Position numbers and translations under genes: made by a program. 64,000 bases of DNA from Muricea muricata (taxonomy: Eukaryota; Cnidaria; Anthozoa; Malacalcyonacea; Plexauridae): positions 42,915,854-42,979,853 of the forward strand of contig OY979716.1 in the NCBI GenBank assembly GCA_963855995.1, read 5' to 3'. A model generated the notes under the pieces. It made no database searches, had not been told where the DNA came from, and saw only the letters and a program-made list of their open reading frames with translations. The first letter of the stretch is position 1, and each line of letters opens with the position of its first letter. Shown one piece after another: positions 9,836 through 56,869 of this stretch.

Positions 9836-10843
9836 TTGGGAGAGGGTGTCCAGGTTTGCGTTAAATTCGGAAAGATTTTAAAAACGAATAGTTTTTCACA
9901 AACTGATTTGTCATGTTTTGAAAATAAAGACGCTGAAACACAGTGCGGCGTAGAAAAAAGCAGCTACGGCAGAAATAATAAATTAGATAAATGGACTTAC
10001 GACCGGTTAAAAGACGAGGTTTTATGTCGGAAGGACATAACCATAAATTGGTGCATGAAAGAGGAATTGATAGCACATGAAAGAGTTTGCAGACATTGCA
10101 GTGAGCAAATGAAACTAGTGGAATATACGGACAGATACAAGTGGGAATGTCGAAGACAGATTGGTGGAAAGAGGCACAAGGTTGAAATGTCAATAAGAAA
10201 AGGTAGTTGGTTCGAAAATAGCAACCTGTCATTAGAGGAAGTATTGAAGTTGACATATTGGTGGTGTCAAGATGTGAAGCAGGAGGAGATATGTCATGAG
10301 CTTAACATCGCTTTTCATACCGCGGTTGATTGGGGCAGTTTCTGCTGCGAAATGTGTGAAATAACACTTCTAGAACAAGACCAACAAATTGGTGGACCTG
10401 GCAAGATTGTCCAAATCGACGAAAGCAAATTCGGCAAAAGGAAATACCATCGAGGGCATCGTGTAGAAGGACAGTGGGTTTTTGGCAGGATTGAAGAAGA
10501 GTCTAGGCATAGTTTTATGGCAGCTGTAGACAAGAGAGATGAAGCGACATTGCTACCTCTGATACAAAAACACATCGCACCGGGGACAACGATAATTTTG
10601 GATTGCTGGAAAGCTTATTGTAATTTAGAGAAGCACGGCTACGAGAATCGCCTTGTCAATCATTCAAAAGAGTTGAGTGACGAGGGATTTCACACGAACA
10701 AAATCGAGGGACACTGGTGACAGGCGAAGTCAAAACTTCCAAGTTTTGGTGTGCAAAAGAGCATGTTTTTGTCGCACTTAGCAGAGTTTTTGTGGCAATA
10801 TGAAAATAAGGATAGAGATTTATTTTCGATATTTATGACTTAA
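9836..10843 (+). pseudogene. Merlin transposase (DDE, IS1016/ISXO2-like), premature stop
   Basis: Catalyses cut-and-paste of the surrounding element (family knowledge). From the start used at 9836 (TTG; the true start may be further upstream or in an upstream exon) the ORF runs 294 codons. A zinc-ribbon-like segment lies around residues 83-105 (VCRHCSEQMKLVEY and a later C). The catalytic triad is visible: D195 in VQIDESKFGKRKYHRG, D256 in ILDCWKAY and E291 in NKIEGHW. TGA at 10718-10720 replaces the Arg codon (CGA) expected after IEGHW. The frame stays open after it for 40 more codons, with the block AKSKLPSFGVQKSMFLSHL, to a TAA at 10841. The copy is therefore disabled by a single CGA to TGA change. 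Divergent from the DUF3987 gene. Confidence 0.9.
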
Positions 10844-35513: not shown

Positions 35514-36905
35514 CTAAATAGGTTGTAGAAAATTCAAAATTTTGTGTTTAAAAGCATCGATCCCCAAAGAATTTCGGATATCTTTACTTAATGTATTCCA
35601 GTCACTAATCACATGATAGCTCATTCTCTGTTTACCCCAGTTTCTTATAGTCTGGGGTAATCTTAACTTATCCCTATTTCTAGTATTATACCTGTGCATG
35701 TCACCATAAGTTAATAATTCCATGGAATGATTTGCATAACCATTTATGCATTTATAAATAAATATGCATCGGTGATAAAATCGTCTTCGTTCTAGTGTAA
35801 TCCAATTAAGCTTGGCCAGAGCTTCCGAAGCGGATGGATATAAAGGTTGATCTAAAATAATCTTAGCTGCCTTATTCTGAAAAACCTGAATATTATTCAT
35901 ATGTATTACGTTATTTTTATCACCCCATACCATATCTGCATAATCAAATAGTGGGAGGACTAAGCCGTTATAAAACAGAAGACGCGCTCTAATCGGTAAT
36001 AAATGGCGAATTCATCTTAGAAGGCCTAACCTTTGGTTGATTTTAGACGTTATGTAATCTACATGGTGAGCCCATGTAAGGTCACTAGATAAGAATCCTC
36101 CCAAATACTTGAAACTATTTGCACTAGTTATACTGAAATCAAAAATAGATACAGGTAACGATCTAATATCTCAAAGCTTACGATTGCTGCCTATAAGCAT
36201 AGATTGTGTTTTATCTAAGTTTAAAGTCAGCTTGTGTTCATTTAGCCATTTGGCTACTGTTAAAAGATCTTCATTTAGTTGCCTTTCAAGTTCTTGAAGG
36301 TTTGTGTTGTAACAATACAATACCGTATCATCAGCATAAAGTGACATTTCACAATGATTCACAGTAGCTGGTAAACTATCAATGTAAATAATAAATAATA
36401 GCGGACCCAATACACTTCCTTGGGGGATGCCAAGTGTCACAGGCAGTTCATCTGAGAGTTCATGGTCACATGATGTTTGCTGTTTCCTGTTACCGAGATA
36501 CGACCGAAACCACTGAAGGGTAGATGGACATATCCTGAGTATTGATAATTTGGTAAGCAATATGTCGTGGTCTACAGTGTCAAATGCCTTTGTTAAATCT
36601 AAAAAAACCGCCCCACAAAACCTCCCTTTTTCCATATTATGCTGGACTTCATCTGTAAAACTAGACAAGGCAGTAACCGTTGAACGTTTTGGTCTAAATC
36701 CAAACTGCTTATCAGAAAGTAGATTGTTTGAATTCAGATATTCATACAGTTGTGAACGCACTGCCTTTTCCAAAATTTTGCTAAGGGTACGCAGGATCGA
36801 AATTGGACAATAATTCAACGGATTGGTTCGATTCCCTGATTTAAACAGAGCTGACACCTTAGAACATTTCCATATTTCGGGGAATTTACCAGTGCCATTG
36901 CCACA
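35514..36905 (-). pseudogene. CR1/Jockey-type LINE reverse transcriptase, 5'-truncated
   Basis: Minus strand. The run 36857-36171 is open for 228 codons and carries RT motifs in order: KSGNRTNPLNYCPISIL, LSDKQFGFRPKRSTVTAL, AVFLDLTKAFDTVDHDIL (catalytic D), LGIPQGSVLGPLLFIIYID and the active site YADDTVLY (36325-36345). The region 35933-35514 holds the C-terminal domain (NKAAKIILDQPLY, DMHRYNTRNRDKLRLP), ending at ILNFLQPI. The link between the two (36170-35940) contains frameshifts. Upstream of 36905 the homology stops: the copy is 5'-truncated, as usual for target-primed LINEs. It lies antisense in the gap of the DDYHNIHT/RING gene. Confidence 0.9.
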
Positions 36906-40467: not shown

Positions 40468-43400
40468 ATGGCGGCCACTAATCCGCTTGGCGTACATGGT
40501 GGTAAACGCGATAATTCTGGCAGAAAAAAGAAGTACGTAGGTTTTTCTAGCTCGCAAAAAGGTTGGAATAGGCAAAACAAGAGAATATACTTGACGATAA
40601 AGATATTCGACGCATGGAAAGAGGCTAAAATAGATGCTGGGTATAGCCGATATAGTGACAGCGAATTTGCTGCTCATCTGCTATCGCTAGAATACCGAAG
40701 AAGGTAAAGCGAAACTCCGAAATAATTTCATTCAGATATTAGTCAGGATGACGCTATTTGGTTTAAAAATGTCTTTCTTTTTACTTCAAGGTCCGATATC
40801 AGTGCCAGTGCGTCGAGAAAAAGAAAGAGAAGCACGGTTGTTAGTCAATCAAATAAAGAGTGCAGCCAGCAACCTAAAACTTCATCTTCGTCAATTGTTT
40901 ATCACGGTAAAATAATTGCATTTCTTCAAATATCATAACATTTACACTTGGTTTTTGTTTATATAGTATAGACTGTATTTACTTACAACAAAGAAAAAAA
41001 TCACACGTGTTTCCTGAACAGATAAATGATGCCATAATGTCAATTGTCAAATGATCTTGTAGTAATATAACATTTGAAATATGAATTTATACTGTACATC
41101 CTCTTTTAGGCCCCATTGTGTCAACTCCACAAAAAAACGTAGAACTTCAAGATGATGAATATCAGCCAACAGAATCACCTATTCTGGGTGAGCAAGCCTA
41201 TCATGGCATATCAGGCAGTGGCTCTTTGCTTGAAGAAGTAAACATGTCGATGGTTGAAAGGTATTTTATTTAAAAGTCTGTGACGACTACTGAATTTTTA
41301 AATGTCTCTACAATAATTATATGATTTCATTTATTCTAGTGTTGATGCAAACAGACTGAACAGATCTATCCTTTACTGATGATGAAGAATCTAGTGAAGG
41401 TGAAAGTGATTCTGATGAAGATGCCAGGTACAACTTAACTTTTGGTTAAAAATTTGATTTTACAGTCATCTAAAAAGAAGCATCTGAAAAATTGTTCAGA
41501 AAAATCAGTTCATCTTCCAACTTTGAGGAATGGCTGAGAATATACCATCAATTTCTTACAGTTTTTACAACATTCAATTGTATTGAAATTAGCTTTAATG
41601 TAGGTGTTCAATAGAAATATATTGTCAAATATGGTTGGTTAATTTAAACAACAGGAAATTGTAAAAACTATGAGGAACAATTTCAATATGAAGTTAGAGA
41701 ATGTACTGGTAAACATTTTTTGGAAACATGTCAATTGGCATGACTGTAATTAAACATTGTTATTTTCTTTTTTCTGTAGTTTACACAATGTGACCATATC
41801 AGCCATACATGAACTTGGCGTTCAAAGGCAAAGGTAAAGTAGTACTTTCAATTAATGATACAATTTAGCCATCATGTATCTGATCGGTTTGTCCTTTTTA
41901 GTCTCACACAAGGTGATACAGCCAGTGACAATGAAGAGCATAGTGATGTTGTGGTCAACGAAACTGAAGATGATGGTGATGATAAAACTGGTGATGAAGT
42001 CATCATTGAAGAAGAAGATGAGAAAGTGTTTTGGGGTCTGAGAGCGCAAACCCATATTTTGGTCCTTTCCAAAAGTTCAGCCGAGAAAACGAACTGAGTG
42101 GGTACCAACAGGAGTTAAAAATGGTGCAAGGAAAGAAAATTATTTGCTTCCTGGATTTACTACTTGCAGTTTTTAAAGCCAGATGCCAAACACCTGGGTG
42201 CACTGTTGTGCCAACTGTTCATCATTACTTTGTGGGTGTTGCCATCATCATCAAGTCATCATGCTCAGCAGGACATACACATAAATTCTGTTCCTCTCAT
42301 GAAACCAATGAGGTGTATGCAAATAATTTACAAGTCATGACTTCCATAATGGTATCTGGAAATCAGTTTGCAAAGATTGAGCAGATGGCAAGATTTTTAC
42401 ATCTTCAATTTATATCAAAGTCAACCTATTATAGATTTCAAAGGTTGTATGTGGTTCCTGGAGTCAACGAGTGGTGGATGTGGATGAAACAAGAGCTTGT
42501 TACAGAGTTTTCTGGCCAAGATGTTGTGGTAGGTGGTGATGGCCAATGTGATTCACCAGGCTTCAATGCCAAGAATATCTGCTATTTCATGATGGAGGCT
42601 ACCTCAAATTATATTCTTGACATTGAAGTCTTGGATAAAAGACATGTTGGCCTCATCTCTACTAACATGGAAAAGGAAGCAGCTCAGCAAAGTCTTGATC
42701 GCCAGAAACAGGAGCTGAAAATTGTTGAATTTGTTACTGATGCTTCTACATCTGTAATTGCATTACTAGGTACAGTATCACTGTGATGTAAATATATTAG
42801 GTAGTTAGGGGACAGTGTGGGTACAAAACTGGAATATAGGAATTAGCACTAATCCTTGAAATGCCATGTTTAGAAAAAAGACATGAAGACATTATTCATA
42901 GTTTGGATGTGTGGCATAAGTCTAAAAGCATCAAGAAGTGCCTAGCAAAGGTGTGTAGTAATGATTGTCAAAATTTTAAAAGTTGGAAATTGACTAAACA
43001 AACCAACAGGCAACACCATGTAAAACAGATAAGGTCCTTTTAAATTAAATCAAGTATATTTCTTTCTGCAGTTAGGTAAACCAAAAGCAATGAGGAAAGT
43101 GAAGGACTGGTCTGCCCACATCGTCAAACATTTTCGGTATTGTTCAAGTTCTTGCCGGGAAGACAATCCCATTTCAGATGAGGAAGCACTCAAACTAAAG
43201 AAGGTTCAAATTTCTTTAGATATGCTTAATTATTTTGGTTAATGTTGTTATTAATATCGCTTTATTTCATAAATGTTTTAGGATAAATGGATTGGTTTGT
43301 TACACCACATATGTAATGAACATCAGTGGCTTGGTGGTCAATGTGATCATGGGGATGATTATGAGCATGATCAAAGTCTTCCGTGGTTTGACAGACGAGA

Positions 43401-50059: not shown

Positions 50060-50246
50060 ATGCTAAGTGTTGAGCCAGAGGGGGAAGAGGCACCGTTATT
50101 AACTCCCAACCAGATGAGAGGGCTGGTGCGCTTGGAAGCAGAACTAGAAAAGAATACAAATTGTACAACGAACTTAGAAGAAAACGTGCGCACGATAGAG
50201 ATGCCAGAGAATTTAGAAGGAAATGTGCCTACAGCAAGAGCACTAG
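50060..50246 (+). pseudogene. P2RX7_C-type gene, N-terminal fragment left of the IS3EU insertion
   Basis: ATG 50060: an acidic/Leu-rich segment (MLSVEPEGEEAPLLTPNQMR...LEENVRTIEMPENLEG) ending in PTARA at the insertion point. The frame resumes at 54863 once the IS3EU element and one copy of the 6-bp target duplication are removed. No recognised domain in this part; the start is provisional because upstream exons may exist. Confidence 0.45.
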
Positions 50247-50502
50247 TATGGTGGCCCATCAGTATCACGACACTTTTGTTTTATAAATATTGTTTTTACA
50301 TTAAATGCTTTTCATTTGGAAGTTAATGTCAATGCAAATACTACGCATTTGTAATCTATTTCCAATTATGAATCTATTTCAAATTTCATTCCCATTCTGA
50401 GTTGATTTTAATTTTTTTATTTTTGACGTAATTATCGAACAAAAAAAAATTAAAATTCTGCGTGGCCCAGCGATGTCAACATAAAAAATACCCAGAGTTC
50501 CT
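50247..50502 (+). repeat. IS3EU left terminal inverted repeat
   Basis: About 255 bp, TATGGTGGCCCATCAG at the outer end and AAAAAATACCCAGAGTTCCT at the inner end. It pairs with 54607-54862. The alpha-kinase ATG lies about 100 bp inside the inner boundary. Confidence 0.9.
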
Positions 50503-50604
50503 AGCAATAAACACGCTGCGCAAACGTTTTAGGTTACGTATTATTAACTTGGAATTGTTTATGTGATATTTTACGTTTTGTTGACTTGAGTCGGTTGTCT
50601 GATC

Positions 50605-51918
50605 ATGAAAAGACGAAGAGACGCAAAAACCAAAACGACTTGGGAAGACTTTGAGCAAAGAGTGGGCCTTAAACGAACTGGGGGAGACAAGGATGGAAAA
50701 AGATCGACCAGAAATGCTCCGAGCGATATTCTTGTGCAACGCATGTCATCAACAGCTTCAGGAAGACTAAAAAAATATGAACCGCTTGATACAAGGGATT
50801 TTGTACCCTTTGGTGACTATCACGAACTTTCCATTGACAATATAAAGGATGCATGCGAGCAATTCTACAAAGCTCCACAAGGCTCATGTGATATTTTAGC
50901 ATCGGATAGAGGTCCATCCTGCACGAAGATTGAGCAAATTAAAGGCAAAAAAGTCTATTTCATACGATTTCTTCAGCCAATAGATTCTTCTCATGCCAGC
51001 GTTGGTGCCTGTACAAAGATTGGACACCAAGCGAAATCGGCCCCTGCGACATCTCCCAGCAAAGTTGCACAGTTACACGAGGAACATGTCAAAATTAAGA
51101 ACACTGTGTACCCAAAGTCGGTATCAATAAGTGATTTAATGAAAGCTGGTAAATTGGTTAAACCTCCAAAAACGGCTGTTTTACAGTTGGAGTTCTTTGA
51201 TGTTCAAAATTGTTGCTGGTCGATAAACAGCAGATCGATAACCTTGGAAATTGGGGATAAGGCATTCGCCAGCGGCAGGTTTCGCAATGCATTTCGTGCG
51301 AAATGCCACGATTCATCATCAAATCTAAAAGGCGAGTGGGTGGTCAAAAAGTATCAAGAAGCCTCCCTAAAAACTATCGAAGATACTTTGAAAATTAGTG
51401 TGGAGGCGCATACACGGAAACAAGTACAAATGCACTGCGTTGCTAGGAACATAACACAACGATTTTCAGCTAAAATTCCGGACGAATTTGGACAGACATT
51501 TTCATATGGGAAAGTCTTTTATTCCGTACTCGAAAATGTTCCCGTCACAATCGAAGCCTACATGCCTGGAGAATTCATTAAATATATTAACAACGATGGA
51601 GAATGTTTAGACTGCCCCCAAGACGACTTGGAAGAGCTGTTCCAGAAAGCGCAATGTCTTTCACACTTTAGTTACGAGTATAGTAACCAGGAACTTATGA
51701 TTTTAGATATTCAAGGTGCGGGGTATTCACTGTACAACCCAGAAATATCCACAACAAGGCTGGATGTTGGATCGAAGCAGTCCTCACAGTCAGACATGTA
51801 CGATGACACGTATTTCTGCGCAGGAAATTTACCCTCCCTTGGAATCAATGAATTCAAGAAACAACATCGGTGTAACAAGTTCTGTGAAATGATGGGTCTT
51901 GGTGCAATGAATGATTGA
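50605..51918 (+). CDS. intact alpha-kinase (atypical Ser/Thr kinase) carried by IS3EU
   Basis: A 437-codon uninterrupted, intronless ORF; ATG 50605 is the first in frame and lies just inside the left terminal repeat. Residues 1-190 are basic and low in motifs (MKRRRDAKTKTTWEDFEQRV). The alpha-kinase domain (about 205-435) shows ASGRFRNAFRAKC (phosphate-binding strand), WVVKKYQ (ATP lysine K248 or K249), VTIEAYMPGEFIKYINNDGE (the family's EPY..G.F.KYNNN.G block), FSYEYSNQELMILDIQGAGY (catalytic D368, Q370), NPEI (378-381), AGNLPSLGI (G407-N408-L409) and a zinc-type end, HRCNKFCEMMGLG. In eEF2K, MHCK and TRPM7 kinases this end helps hold a structural zinc. Most family members have DPxI where this protein has NPEI. 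Substrate unknown. It shares the element with, and points toward, the transposase gene. All other key residues are intact, so an active protein is plausible. Confidence 0.9.
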   Translation: MKRRRDAKTKTTWEDFEQRVGLKRTGGDKDGKRSTRNAPSDILVQRMSSTASGRLKKYEPLDTRDFVPFGDYHELSIDNIKDACEQFYKAPQGSCDILASDRGPSCTKIEQIKGKKVYFIRFLQPIDSSHASVGACTKIGHQAKSAPATSPSKVAQLHEEHVKIKNTVYPKSVSISDLMKAGKLVKPPKTAVLQLEFFDVQNCCWSINSRSITLEIGDKAFASGRFRNAFRAKCHDSSSNLKGEWVVKKYQEASLKTIEDTLKISVEAHTRKQVQMHCVARNITQRFSAKIPDEFGQTFSYGKVFYSVLENVPVTIEAYMPGEFIKYINNDGECLDCPQDDLEELFQKAQCLSHFSYEYSNQELMILDIQGAGYSLYNPEISTTRLDVGSKQSSQSDMYDDTYFCAGNLPSLGINEFKKQHRCNKFCEMMGLGAMND

Positions 51919-52876
51919 CCGAGCAAGTTGTGATTACAGCATTGTAAGAACATACACTATTCTCTCAAAGCATTGAACATTAATTTTTTGACATTTGTAA
52001 TTTCCAAAAATTCATCGTGTTAAAATTTTGTTATTCACAGTTTATACAAAGTAATACATATAGGCGATAAACTGGTAGATAACTTGTACTTCACATCAGT
52101 GTACTGTACGTCGTCTCAAGTAAATGTCGTCACTTTATGTCAAGTACTCAAGTACGCATGTTATAGCTAGTAAAAGTTGGAGTGCTTTCTGTAAAAGTGT
52201 ATGAGTGGTACCCAATATACTTTATAAGTGCTATGTCTCGGCTGTCACATGAAGGTACGTATATAAAAACTCGAACAAATTTTTAAATTTTCAATCAATC
52301 GATATTCGATTTGTTATGCTTTTCAATTTTTGGTCTGATGCAATCGTGAACAAATCCTCATCATTTGCGAAAAAAATACAAAATTTCAAAAATATCCTAC
52401 CTTAGAAAGCCGAATGATACATTGCATATTGTCTTGAATGTTTGCGCGTCTGTTAATTCTTTGAAGATCAATTACATTTGAATCGACTTGAAACGTACAA
52501 CTTGTGTTTTTCCGGCACAATTGCACTGAAATTACATTTAAACAGAACGTAATATCTCAAAATATCGACTGTAATTAAATCAATATCAATGCCTAGATGT
52601 TACAATTGATGCAAAAATACACACAAACATCCGAATCAAAGAAATTAATTATTATTATGTTAACAAAAATATATTATGGCCCTTTGTTGGTATTGTTCAT
52701 GATTATATATGCATGCGAATTATATATTAAAAGCTTATATATATATGGCTGAGTTCTGCTCGCAGTAGTTCCAAACTAAAAATACAGTATTTGTTTACAT
52801 TGTTATATCGACTTATTTCCGGTTTTTCCCGGCAAAGGTCAAGTGCTGTCATAAATGACTCACAATATCGTCGAGA
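51919..52876. other. shared 3' region between alpha-kinase and IS3EU transposase
   Basis: AT-rich 0.96 kb between the two convergent stop codons, with (TA)n tracts near 52735-52745. No ORF or repeat recognised. Confidence 0.5.
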
Positions 52877-54576
52877 TTACAATTTAAGACTTTCTTTTAA
52901 ATAAATGTACGATTCTGTTACTTTATATGGTTCCAGATCACCTGGGCATGGCAAAAGTCTCTCGCATTCATTCCTCACTCTCACGTTGTTGTCTTGCTCT
53001 AATGAATTGAGTAAACCAGAGACCTCAGCAGCTTCTCTTAAATGCTCTTCTTGGATCGAAATTCCACAATGTGCGCTCCCATATTGTTCTGGAAAGGAAA
53101 ACATATGGTTGGGCACGCCTGTTGGAAGCAGAAGATTCTTTTGTTCCCGAATACGATGTGTGTTCCAGTTGTTAACAAAAATGTTGCACTCTCTCTGAAT
53201 GACTGGTATGAAAACGTATGCCATCAGCTGTCTGTGGTCGGCATTATGAGGATCGTAGTATCTTCTTTGAAGTAAATAGGTCAAATGTTCTTTAAAATAT
53301 TGCTCAAACCGTTCGTGCAGGTCACGCCACCAGCGCTCGATTTTATTCGACGTGGAAGGACCATATATGATGGAATCCACAGCGTCCTCCATAATTCCCG
53401 CTTTGTCCACAAGGAAAGCATGCAGCGTGGACATTTTTCCAGTTTCGGTGCCCTTGTCTAGTCGTAGAAATCTAGGCATAACTCGGTGCTCGGTCAAATA
53501 TTCCAGGTACTTCTTACCGACAATCATAGGATCTGAATTGGAGCGGGACACAAATAAATATAATATTTTTCTGCTGAACGTATCAAGGCAGCCATAGATA
53601 CAAAGAGGAAATGTCCAGTTCTGATATCCGCATAATTTGTCGTGCCCATCTAATGAAGCAAGCCATAACGGCCCTTCAGATGAAAATGGAACTTTTGGTT
53701 TCTTAGTTTTTTTGTTAAGAGCTCTACTTTCCAGGCCTTCTGGATCCAACTCCTTAAGCACGTTATGCACTAAATGCCGTGGGACTTTAATATTGTGCTC
53801 ATTTCTCAGCTTTTGGTTTAATGCCCGATATCCTAAATAGTCCGGTCGCTTAGCGGCAAAAATTGGCAAGATCTGTACAAAGCGGACAAAGTCAGTATTT
53901 CTTTCCCCGCGACTCCTAAGTCAAATTGAAATGTTTTTGGGGGTGTAATGAAGATATTCACAAAATTTATCATCTCGGGGGGGAGTTCCGTTTTTGAAAT
54001 AACGGTTCGGGATGCTTGTTCATGTTTTACTCAATCATTGTATTTAATAATAAGGTGTTGGAATATTGTTCAAAGGCATGGACTTGATAACTGATAAATG
54101 GGCATATAAAATTTCCTGTTTGATGTTCTCACATTAAATATCATTGACTGGCAGAGAAACATTGCCAACCGTTAACGTACCACCTCACTGTGGTAACACC
54201 CCCCTAACTTGAAAATTTTGGGCACCCGTTCTTAAATTGATTAGGAGGCATAGTTAATCAATTGTAGAGGGGGTGCCCAAGTTTGTACTCGCCAGTACAG
54301 ATCGTTTGGTTAAGCGACCTCACTAAAACATCTACCAGGACAGATTAATTCTTTTGAAACGGCGTTGGTGACAGCATTTAATGGAGTTTCATAATTAATG
54401 TATTTTATATGAAAATATCTAAGTCGTCGACTTAGTGTTGCCATACTCCATGGGTAATCTGGATAGTCACGTTTAACGTAGTCTAATATTTCACTTTTCT
54501 TAATATTTTCGCGGACGTACTTTTCGAGATCATTCCTCAACTTTTCGCTAGCTTTCCAATCAGAATTGCACGCCAT
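52877..54576 (-). CDS. IS3EU transposase (rve/DDE integrase core), two exons
   Basis: The N-terminal exon (54576 to about 54335; ATG at 54576) reads MACNSDWKASEKLRNDLEKY and a helix-turn-helix-like SEILDYVKRDYPDYPWSMAT, SRRLRYF. The last exon (about 53875-52877) is open for 330 codons: an HTH-like LGYRALNQKLRNEHNIKVPR, then the integrase core with D74 (ASLDGHDKLCGYQNW), D138 (FLRLDKGTETGK) and E178 (GPSTSNKIERWWRDLHERF), i.e. D-D-35/40-E spacing. It ends YIYLKESLKL. A donor (CTG/GTAGAT, about 54338) and an acceptor (TTGTACAG, about 53875) would remove about 460 bp. The intron position is my inference; otherwise a frameshift lies there. Catalytic residues are all present. Confidence 0.8.
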
Positions 54577-54606
54577 AACGCTGCCGACTTCATGCGTGTC
54601 TCGCGA

Positions 54607-54862
54607 GGAGTTCTGGGTATTTTTTATGTTGACATCGCTGGGCCACGCAGAATTTTAATTTTTTTTTGTTCGATAATTACGTCAAAAATAAAAAAAATTA
54701 AAATCAACTCAGAATGGGAATGAAATTTGAAATAGATTCATAATAGGAAATAGATTACAAATGCGTAGTATTTGCATTGACATTAACTTCCAAATGAAAA
54801 GCATTTAATGTAAAAACGATATTTATAAAACAAAAATGTCGTGATACTGATGGGCCACCATA
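54607..54862 (-). repeat. IS3EU right terminal inverted repeat
   Basis: Reverse complement of 50247-50502. The transposase ATG (54576) lies about 30 bp inside its inner edge, so the repeat probably contains the transposase promoter and its partner the kinase promoter. Confidence 0.9.
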
Positions 54863-56869
54863 CACCAGCAGATGTAGACGAAAGTACACCTGATCAGTCT
54901 GTATGTCTACAAAGACAACGGCAGCCACTTTTGCATTTGGGATATTATGCACCTGGCAACTCTGCCACATAGCAAGATCCTAACGTGGCAATTATTCAAG
55001 CACAAAATCCTTGGGTACCCCACCATACAACACCCTACGGTGTCCTTACAGGTACAAGTCTGATGAACCAGTATCTCATGTTCCAACAACAAGAGATGAA
55101 CCACTGTGTTCCCACCACAAGTGATGAACCAGTACTTTATGTTCCAACCACAAGTGATGAACTCAATGCTGACGATACCAATGTGTTGACATTTCACCAA
55201 CATCACGTTTTGGATTTTAGGTAGTAGTATATGATGAACATTGAACATTCACACTAGAAATCAAAGAAACAAAAGAAGAAAGAAAACTTGCTGTTCTTTT
55301 CACATAAAAGTAAACTGTATTTAATGCATGTTTTAATGTAAGGTAACTTACATAATTAGGATCTAAAATAGTGTTCATGTTCAGAGTTAGCGAGCTGGCC
55401 TGATCAACCATCTCGGGTGTTTATAGCACATGAACACTAATAAGTTTACAAACAATAATGTGGTAAAGAATTAAAGAATGAGGCTCATAGTAATACATTG
55501 CGTGCTTAATGTTTATGTTGACATCGGATCGACATGTCATAGTGGCTCATCGTGCACTAAATTAACATCTTCTACATTCATTGGCAAATCTTTTTTTGGA
55601 AGTATAAAATATACTTTTGGTATGTCCTCATCAGACACTGATGAGGATTTAAATGTATCGCAATACAACGTTGAAGACGATCTTAATGCCTATGGACCAC
55701 CCACAAACTCGACGCAAGTAGCAGCTGATGCGATCTCTCTGCCAGCAACAAGCCAAACTAGAACACAAGTAAATAAATATTTCAATAGATTATACCTTTT
55801 TATTTTTATGTTCAGTTTTATATTCTGGATTTGTTTCGTACGTTTAGTTTTGTAATTGCAAAAATACATGCAGTAAACGCAGTGGAAGAAAAAAGCGAGG
55901 TTGTCCTTGCCGAGATAAGGGATTGAAATGCATTGATGGCTGTACCTGTGAAACAAAGAAGGCAGTGTGCAATAACAAACAAGGAACAGCAGCTGTCTTG
56001 TGTATTGGTAGAAATGCTTTCGAGCGTCATCAGATCGCGGTTGAGGAAGCAAAAGGGCAAATTACAGTCGGTGTTTTTATTTCAGGTTTCTTATTTCATT
56101 TTACATGTGGTTTGTGCAATTTTGTAATCTGTAGTAGATTTTTCAAGTCATTGTTTATTCATTTGTATCTACATGTATCATACAACCATGGTGCCCAAAA
56201 CAGTATTATATATTACAATTCTTACAAGTGTTTGGCATTTGGTTAAAAATGCTTATTCTCAAAAACACATAAATTTCCAGGCAATTTATAGACAATAAGC
56301 TAACTGTATTATGTATATTGTTCATAAATTAACCAGAAATATACAGTTATTGCAAAAAGCATTTTGTCATAAGAGGTTCTTGTTTCTAGGAATTTATAGG
56401 AGGTCTAACAGAAGAGCAAAAAGACAAATTACTCCTTGAGGTTTTGTCAAATGGAAAAGGTAGCCTTGACTATGTCAAGAGCCTTGTGGAATTTCGTGGT
56501 GATCCTCCAGATCTTCCTCAGACAAAGCCCCCATGGTGCACATGTGGAGTTTGCCAGCCAATGTCAACTGAGGAGGAAAATAGGTGTTGCAAAAAAATAC
56601 GATGTGTAACATCATTCGTGTCACTTCAGAATACTTGCACAGATAGTTTTTTTGTAATGGCTATTAGGGCCAGATGTGACATTAGAGCAGAGGAGCCAGA
56701 CTATAGTACAAATAGTTTTCGAAAGGCTGCCTACCGCTAGTACATTCTATAGCGGTACAAAAAGTTGGGAAGAGGAAATAGGAGAGTTCGCCCTTCATGT
56801 GTTGTTCTGGCAATAAGACACATATACCCTACCAATGATGGTATTTACATGGGGTTTAAGAGGGCATAG
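54863..56869 (+). pseudogene. gene with CRC-like Cys cluster and P2RX7_C zinc domain
   Basis: Continues the frame cut at 50246. 54863-55222: Pro/Gln-rich with a direct VPTTSDEPV/VPTTSDEL repeat and one TAG (54968). Exon about 55500-55770: acidic SSSDTDEDLNVSQYN, ending QTRTQ. Exon about 55853-56071: a cysteine cluster CNCKNTCSKR...GCPCRDKGLKC...GCTCETKK...VCNN, resembling tesmin/CXC (CRC) repeats. Last exon from 56391: EFIGGLTEEQKDKLLLEVL, then the P2RX7_C-type zinc domain: PPWCTCGVCQPMSTEEENRCC, ending LGRGNRRVRPSCVVLAIRH and GIYMGFKRA at 56867. That domain is known as the intracellular tail of the P2X7 receptor and, without a channel, in many multicopy genes of fish and cnidarians. No transmembrane channel part is present here. 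Two TAG codons (56738, 56750) interrupt the last block. Ends 170 bp from the convergent GDG gene. Confidence 0.7.

Follow-up and report, generated by a model that had tools for sequence, protein, structure and literature searches.

An IS3EU-type transposon of Muricea muricata with an alpha-kinase gene facing its transposase: probably a resident gene, in a copy that looks to be decaying

The window analysed here, a 64,000-nucleotide stretch of Muricea muricata DNA, harbours an IS3EU-type transposon of 4,616 bp (positions 50247-54862) in which an alpha-kinase gene on the plus strand and a DDE transposase gene on the minus strand converge. Cut-and-paste transposons do not usually encode a signalling enzyme. 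In our view it is rather likely that the element represents a two-gene IS3EU lineage, with the kinase as a resident gene that faces the transposase and as an element-encoded regulator, and that the copy described here is a decaying one.

The element and its boundaries

The two ends of the element form terminal inverted repeats of ~260 bp, which align with 97.3% identity over 261 columns. The outermost bases, TATGG..CCATA, are in agreement with the TA..TA termini of IS3EU (TAYGG..CCRTA in rust families), and the hexamers flanking the element, identical at 5 of 6 positions with a single mismatch, represent the 6-bp target-site duplication typical of this group. The stretch is a real, well-bounded IS3EU-type element. 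The original prediction of its ends, of the CACTAG/CACCAG duplication, of nearly identical inverted ends (given as 255 bp, slightly less than the columns aligned here), of an uninterrupted 437-codon kinase frame on the plus strand and of a DDE transposase on the minus strand was borne out throughout by the end-to-end alignment, the ORF scan and the Pfam matches given below.

When the flanks were rejoined with one copy of the target, a frame of 113 codons stayed open across the junction. Such a frame was also found in 26 of 2,000 Markov surrogates and in 667 of 2,000 controls in which the left flank was joined to random stretches of the window. In view of these controls, the open frame was dropped as proof of insertion.

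The start codons of the kinase and the transposase lie 358 bp and 286 bp, respectively, in from the outer ends, and the opposite orientation of both genes is that of the TET+ IS3EU subgroup. The TET/JBP gene of that subgroup has no counterpart among ORFs of at least 60 aa, none of which was found by the ORF scan wholly inside 51919-52876.

Table 1. Features of the element and its flanks (positions in the window)
Feature	Position	Strand	Basis
Left target-site duplication, CACTAG	50241..50246	.	Flank sequence
Left terminal inverted repeat, TATGG start	50247..50505	+	End-to-end alignment
Alpha-kinase gene, 437 codons plus stop	50605..51918	+	ORF and Pfam match
Predicted beta-grasp (ubiquitin-like) domain, residues 41-122	50725..50970	+	AlphaFold2 model
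Low-confidence linker, residues 129-163	50989..51093	+	pLDDT <50
Alpha-kinase domain, residues 222-427	51268..51885	+	
Codon 378, Asn in this copy	51736..51738	+	Comparison with relatives
Region between the convergent genes	51919..52876	.	ORF list
C-terminal part of the transposase (ORF of 330 aa) with the PF24764 integrase core; matches full-length relatives from ~53836	52877..53869	-	
488-bp stretch splitting the transposase frame, probable nested insert	53838..54325	.	Alignment of relatives and inverted ends
N-terminal part of the transposase (ORF of 88 aa); match to relatives stops near 54322	54310..54576	-	
Right terminal inverted repeat, CCATA end on the plus strand	54603..54862	-	End-to-end alignment
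Right target-site duplication, CACCAG	54863..54868	.	Flank sequence

The alpha-kinase gene

Among 200 surrogates generated from the element with a first-order Markov model, the longest stop-free run had 199 codons, far fewer than the kinase ORF. The product of this ORF matches the Pfam family Alpha_kinase over the whole 185-position profile (E-value 1.6e-30; 107 bits versus a curated cut-off of 21.3). The domain has the alpha-kinase fold and is similar to the cellular kinases TRPM7, eEF2K and MHCK-A. It also retains H354, H421, C423 and C427, which we take to be the His/His/Cys/Cys zinc site of TRPM7.

The active site is preserved in part. Among the 193 listed relatives, gaps set aside, K248 is shared by 189/191, D368 by 167/168 and Q370 by 165/168, and all but three of the 166 with a letter at position 378 carry Asp there (163 D, 2 N, 1 V). 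This copy keeps D368 and has Asn in place of the second Asp. The two positions are ten residues apart, the same spacing as that of D756 and D766 in MHCK-A, whose D756A and D766A variants are titled inactive in the PDB list. Judging from these comparisons, the kinase of this copy is likely to be impaired, with the reservation that Asn and Ala are different replacements.

An AlphaFold2 model of residues 1-126 reached a mean pLDDT of 82, and the PDB matches listed for it were mostly ubiquitin-like, but weak. The N-terminal part of the kinase is thus weakly predicted to be a ubiquitin-like domain, an assignment which is new in the present analysis.

The transposase gene and its split frame

The longer of the two transposase ORFs matches the PF24764 integrase core (7.1e-24), as expected for the DDE transposase of an IS3EU element. 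Seven acidic residues are nearly invariant among 79 long relatives, and three of them, D74 (79/79), D138 (79/79) and E178 (78/79), all kept in the ORF of the element, are assigned here as the putative DDE triad.

A 488-bp stretch interrupts the transposase frame; it has inverted ends of 15 bp (complementary at 13 of 15 positions) and is bordered by AAA on both sides. The simplest reading is that this stretch is probably a small nested transposon. It may instead be a spliced intron, a reading opposed by the unbroken sequence at this site in all eight full-length relatives compared, although their records may be spliced models. Neither this split nor the Asn at residue 378 of the kinase had been noted in the original prediction.

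The presence of an apparent nested insert, though in the transposase, would also accord with a chimeric origin of the element, that is, a separate kinase-bearing insertion inside an ordinary IS3EU element. A nested insertion boundary around 50605-51918, proposed earlier as the sign of such an origin, was looked for, and no bracketing pair of repeats of at least 20 nt was found, a length below which pairs would escape the search. Moreover, the same pair of genes in the same orientation has been published for fungi (PMC12730594), and a chimera appears very unlikely.

Relatives of both genes and their linkage

The sequence search revealed 155 relatives of the kinase at E<=1e-3, a profile built from diverged kinases gave 145 matches at the same threshold, and 327 relatives were found for the transposase. 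The best 120 of each search were listed, the two kinase lists together comprising 193 distinct relatives. Corals, other cnidarians and sea squirts are the organisms among the named kinase matches listed, with as many as 112 member sequences in one kinase cluster (P0292, among the matches listed). Many of the diverged relatives have in common not only the kinase domain but also the N-terminal region. In some source records from coral and sea squirt, relatives are labelled as host genes (TRPM6-like, eEF2K, myosin heavy chain kinase). The profile of diverged members, a means of reaching fungal kinases, gave no fungus among those listed matches that bear an organism name, which are a minority of the list. 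Neither the IMG/VR contigs (291 pattern stretches) nor the GTDB genomes (69 pattern stretches) yielded a confirmed relative, and viral and prokaryotic homes of the kinase were rejected on these grounds.

As a proxy for linkage, the longest contigs of the listed kinase and transposase relatives were searched for pairs of exactly equal size in bp. Above 10 kb, the first comparison yielded six exact matches versus 0.005 expected from shifted lengths, and the second comparison yielded one versus 0.0; the seven matched sizes are 17,739, 64,267, 85,488, 153,774 and 434,795 bp and those of two records in the megabase range. At sizes below 10 kb, matches occurred at 2,842 and 5,435 bp (first comparison) and at 2,188 bp (second), which is about chance level, the numbers expected over all sizes being 0.82 and 0.585, respectively. 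Equal size suggests a shared contig, not adjacency.

Co-inheritance of the two genes, as assessed by the Mantel test, is weak. Kinase and transposase identities correlate with r 0.47 (p 0.014) for the element plus eight pairs, with r 0.42 (p 0.024) for the element plus nine pairs and with r 0.50 (p 0.014) for the element plus the seven pairs above 10 kb. The same seven pairs taken without the present element give r 0.21 (p 0.28). Thus, co-occurrence of kinase and transposase is supported, and their congruent descent is not.

These data bear on the possibility of a recent capture, in which the kinase would be a host-derived passenger of the present element alone, kept here by selection. The intact ORF and the resemblance of the domain to TRPM7, eEF2K and MHCK-A are what one would expect of such a passenger. 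Yet diverged relatives with a common N-terminal region and kinase domain are numerous, some kinase contigs equal in size those of related transposases, and fungi have the same gene pair (PMC12730594). Together with the seemingly unconstrained private changes of this copy described below, this makes a recent capture quite improbable. The earlier notion of a passenger holds insofar as a full-length alpha-kinase does lie between intact IS3EU ends, and fails insofar as, given the many diverged relatives and the size-matched transposase contigs, the gene does not appear to be specific to the present element. The kinase is probably a long-standing resident, best read as the second gene of the lineage.

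Constraint on the family and decay of this copy

For the analysis of constraint, the kinase of the element was aligned with 52 relatives that are 35-95% identical to it; all 53 members match Alpha_kinase. The score of a column was the proportion of 48 members that carry its majority residue; the present element and P0001-P0004 were left out of the scoring, and the comparison was confined to residues 1-418 because the C-terminal end of P0001 differs. The 66 changes that separate P0001 from P0002 are concentrated in variable columns, with a mean majority share of 0.338 versus 0.566 for random changes (0 of 20,000 draws as low), as do the 78 changes between P0002 and P0004 (mean 0.341). In contrast, the 12 changes between the kinase of the element and P0001 have a mean of 0.566 versus 0.565 at random and show no bias towards variable columns. 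The nine changes private to this copy have a mean of 0.558, a value reached by nine changes resampled from the P0001-P0002 set in 0.022% of cases.

Since changes between families avoid conserved sites and the private changes do not, the kinase family is under constraint at the protein level, as judged from a small comparison of residues that is not a dN/dS estimate, while the kinase of this copy looks to be drifting. The original prediction that the kinase of this very copy is retained under selection is not supported, in view of the random spread of its private changes over conserved and variable sites and of the replaced active-site Asp. With its transposase frame split and an Asp of its kinase lost, the copy looks like a decaying member of its lineage.

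The same observations weigh against domestication of this kinase copy as a host gene. An intact kinase ORF next to a split transposase frame would fit a gene that had passed into the service of the host, but its private changes ignore conservation, one of them striking the active-site Asp, and the inverted repeats and target-site duplication are still in place. Domestication seems highly improbable.

Four of the nine private changes (residues 210, 225, 228 and 378) are compatible with G to A following C, the CpG decay expected of methylated sequence, with the ancestral codons inferred from protein only. This pattern would suit a close rival of our preferred reading, according to which the kinase, by analogy with the TET genes of fungal transposons, helps the element to evade host silencing and does not regulate the transposase. 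In the fungal IS3EU families described with a kinase, a TET/JBP gene is present as well and has been ascribed an anti-silencing role (PMC12730594). On the other hand, the element taken as a whole shows no depletion of CpG (observed/expected 1.02), and the link between the kinase and silencing is at best indirect. We regard evasion of silencing as possible, though less likely than not.

Possible role of the kinase

Under the preferred reading of a resident second gene, the kinase most likely regulates transposition or host silencing, and phosphorylation of the transposase or of a host factor is our leading guess. As both genes start shortly inside nearly identical ends, they would probably be driven by the same terminal promoter. 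The N-terminal domain would probably recruit a partner, and the kinase might then phosphorylate the transposase or a host protein involved in repair or silencing, whereby transposition could be timed or protected. Regulation by captured genes has been proposed before: a talk of 2012 is reported to have dealt with complex transposons of fungi that descend from En/Spm and IS3EU, and with host-derived proteins in transposons that are thought to regulate transposition (PMC3520738).

Should the kinase be a core gene, phosphorylation would belong to the life cycle of the element, with a substrate that can be tested for, and the 'host' alpha-kinases of the coral and sea squirt records would become transposon genes. 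It may also explain an observation in fungi, where the alpha-kinase family is highly expanded in rusts (PMC4469406) and PF02816 is tabulated among the families with enrichment in wheat rusts (ratio 2.34, q 0.035; PMC5295586). Tentatively, one may go further and picture the combination of beta-grasp and alpha-kinase domains as an ancient core component of a class of two-gene transposons of animals and fungi, licensing transposition or disarming silencing, with the rust expansion and the coral and sea squirt 'host' kinases being largely its cargo; this broader proposal we hold to be conceivable rather than likely.

Comparison with known systems

The element shares TA..TA termini, a 6-bp target-site duplication (the usual length in that group) and an IS3-like DDE transposase with the IS3EU/GingerRoot superfamily (PMC10045372), in the description of which the word 'kinase' does not occur in the main text. 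Styx of Zymoseptoria likewise combines an IS3EU-related transposase with extra genes, but those given in the pertinent part of its description are GATA, CCHC and DUF3577, with no alpha-kinase among them (PMC10853768).

Unlike the kinase domains of TRPM7, MHCK-A and eEF2K (1ia9, 3lmh, 8gm4), the kinase studied here is borne by a transposon, has a predicted beta-grasp-like N-terminal domain and carries N378.

The closest description is that of the TET+ IS3EU of rust fungi and Tuber indicum. An IS3EU element with a kinase, of which the original prediction knew no description, is already in print for fungi in one passage (section 4.1 of PMC12730594), the single one found in the literature searched. 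According to it, every TET+ IS3EU family possesses an alpha-kinase gene in the orientation opposite to that of the transposase. These elements differ from the present one in the TET/JBP gene lying between the two others, a region in which the Muricea element has no complete ORF of at least 60 aa. They resemble it in the opposite orientation of the transposase gene and a gene described as an alpha-kinase and, as stated for the rust families, in 6-bp target-site duplications, terminal inverted repeats of >30 bp and TAYGG..CCRTA ends.

Internal structure and insertion site of the transposon

The transposase gene of the IS3EU-type element is split by a stretch of 488 bp, which is probably a nested insert and which contains a 26-bp hairpin (85% complementary). 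A palindrome-like AT-rich repeat with arms of approximately 22 bp is present in each of the inverted terminal repeats of the element, and these may represent a candidate regulatory or transposase-binding site. When the two flanks of the element were joined into an empty site, a frame of 113 codons was found to run uninterrupted across the junction; comparison with control joins revealed nothing unusual in such an open frame for the left flank. Three further ORFs of the window showed matches to mobile-element proteins, one of them below the threshold.

Features of the element, its empty site and other ORFs with mobile-element matches
Feature	Position	Strand	E-value
488-bp stretch	53838-54325		
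Hairpin	54218-54280		
Palindrome-like repeats	50405-50456; 54652-54704		
Empty site	50060-50246 + 54869 onward		
IS1595/ISXO2-like transposase domain	9836-10720	+	1.6e-13
Reverse transcriptase domain	36171-36857	-	4e-39
Mutator-like transposase match (sub-threshold)	42031-42786	+	0.0085

Relatives of the transposon-borne alpha-kinase

In public records, database relatives of the kinase are labelled as host genes, namely TRPM6-like (Paramuricea and Stylophora), eEF2K (Phallusia) and myosin heavy chain kinase D-like (Ciona). According to a candidate-effector study, 46 genes under diversifying selection include one rust alpha-kinase gene (PMC4150398), which, as a lead only, could be transposon cargo.
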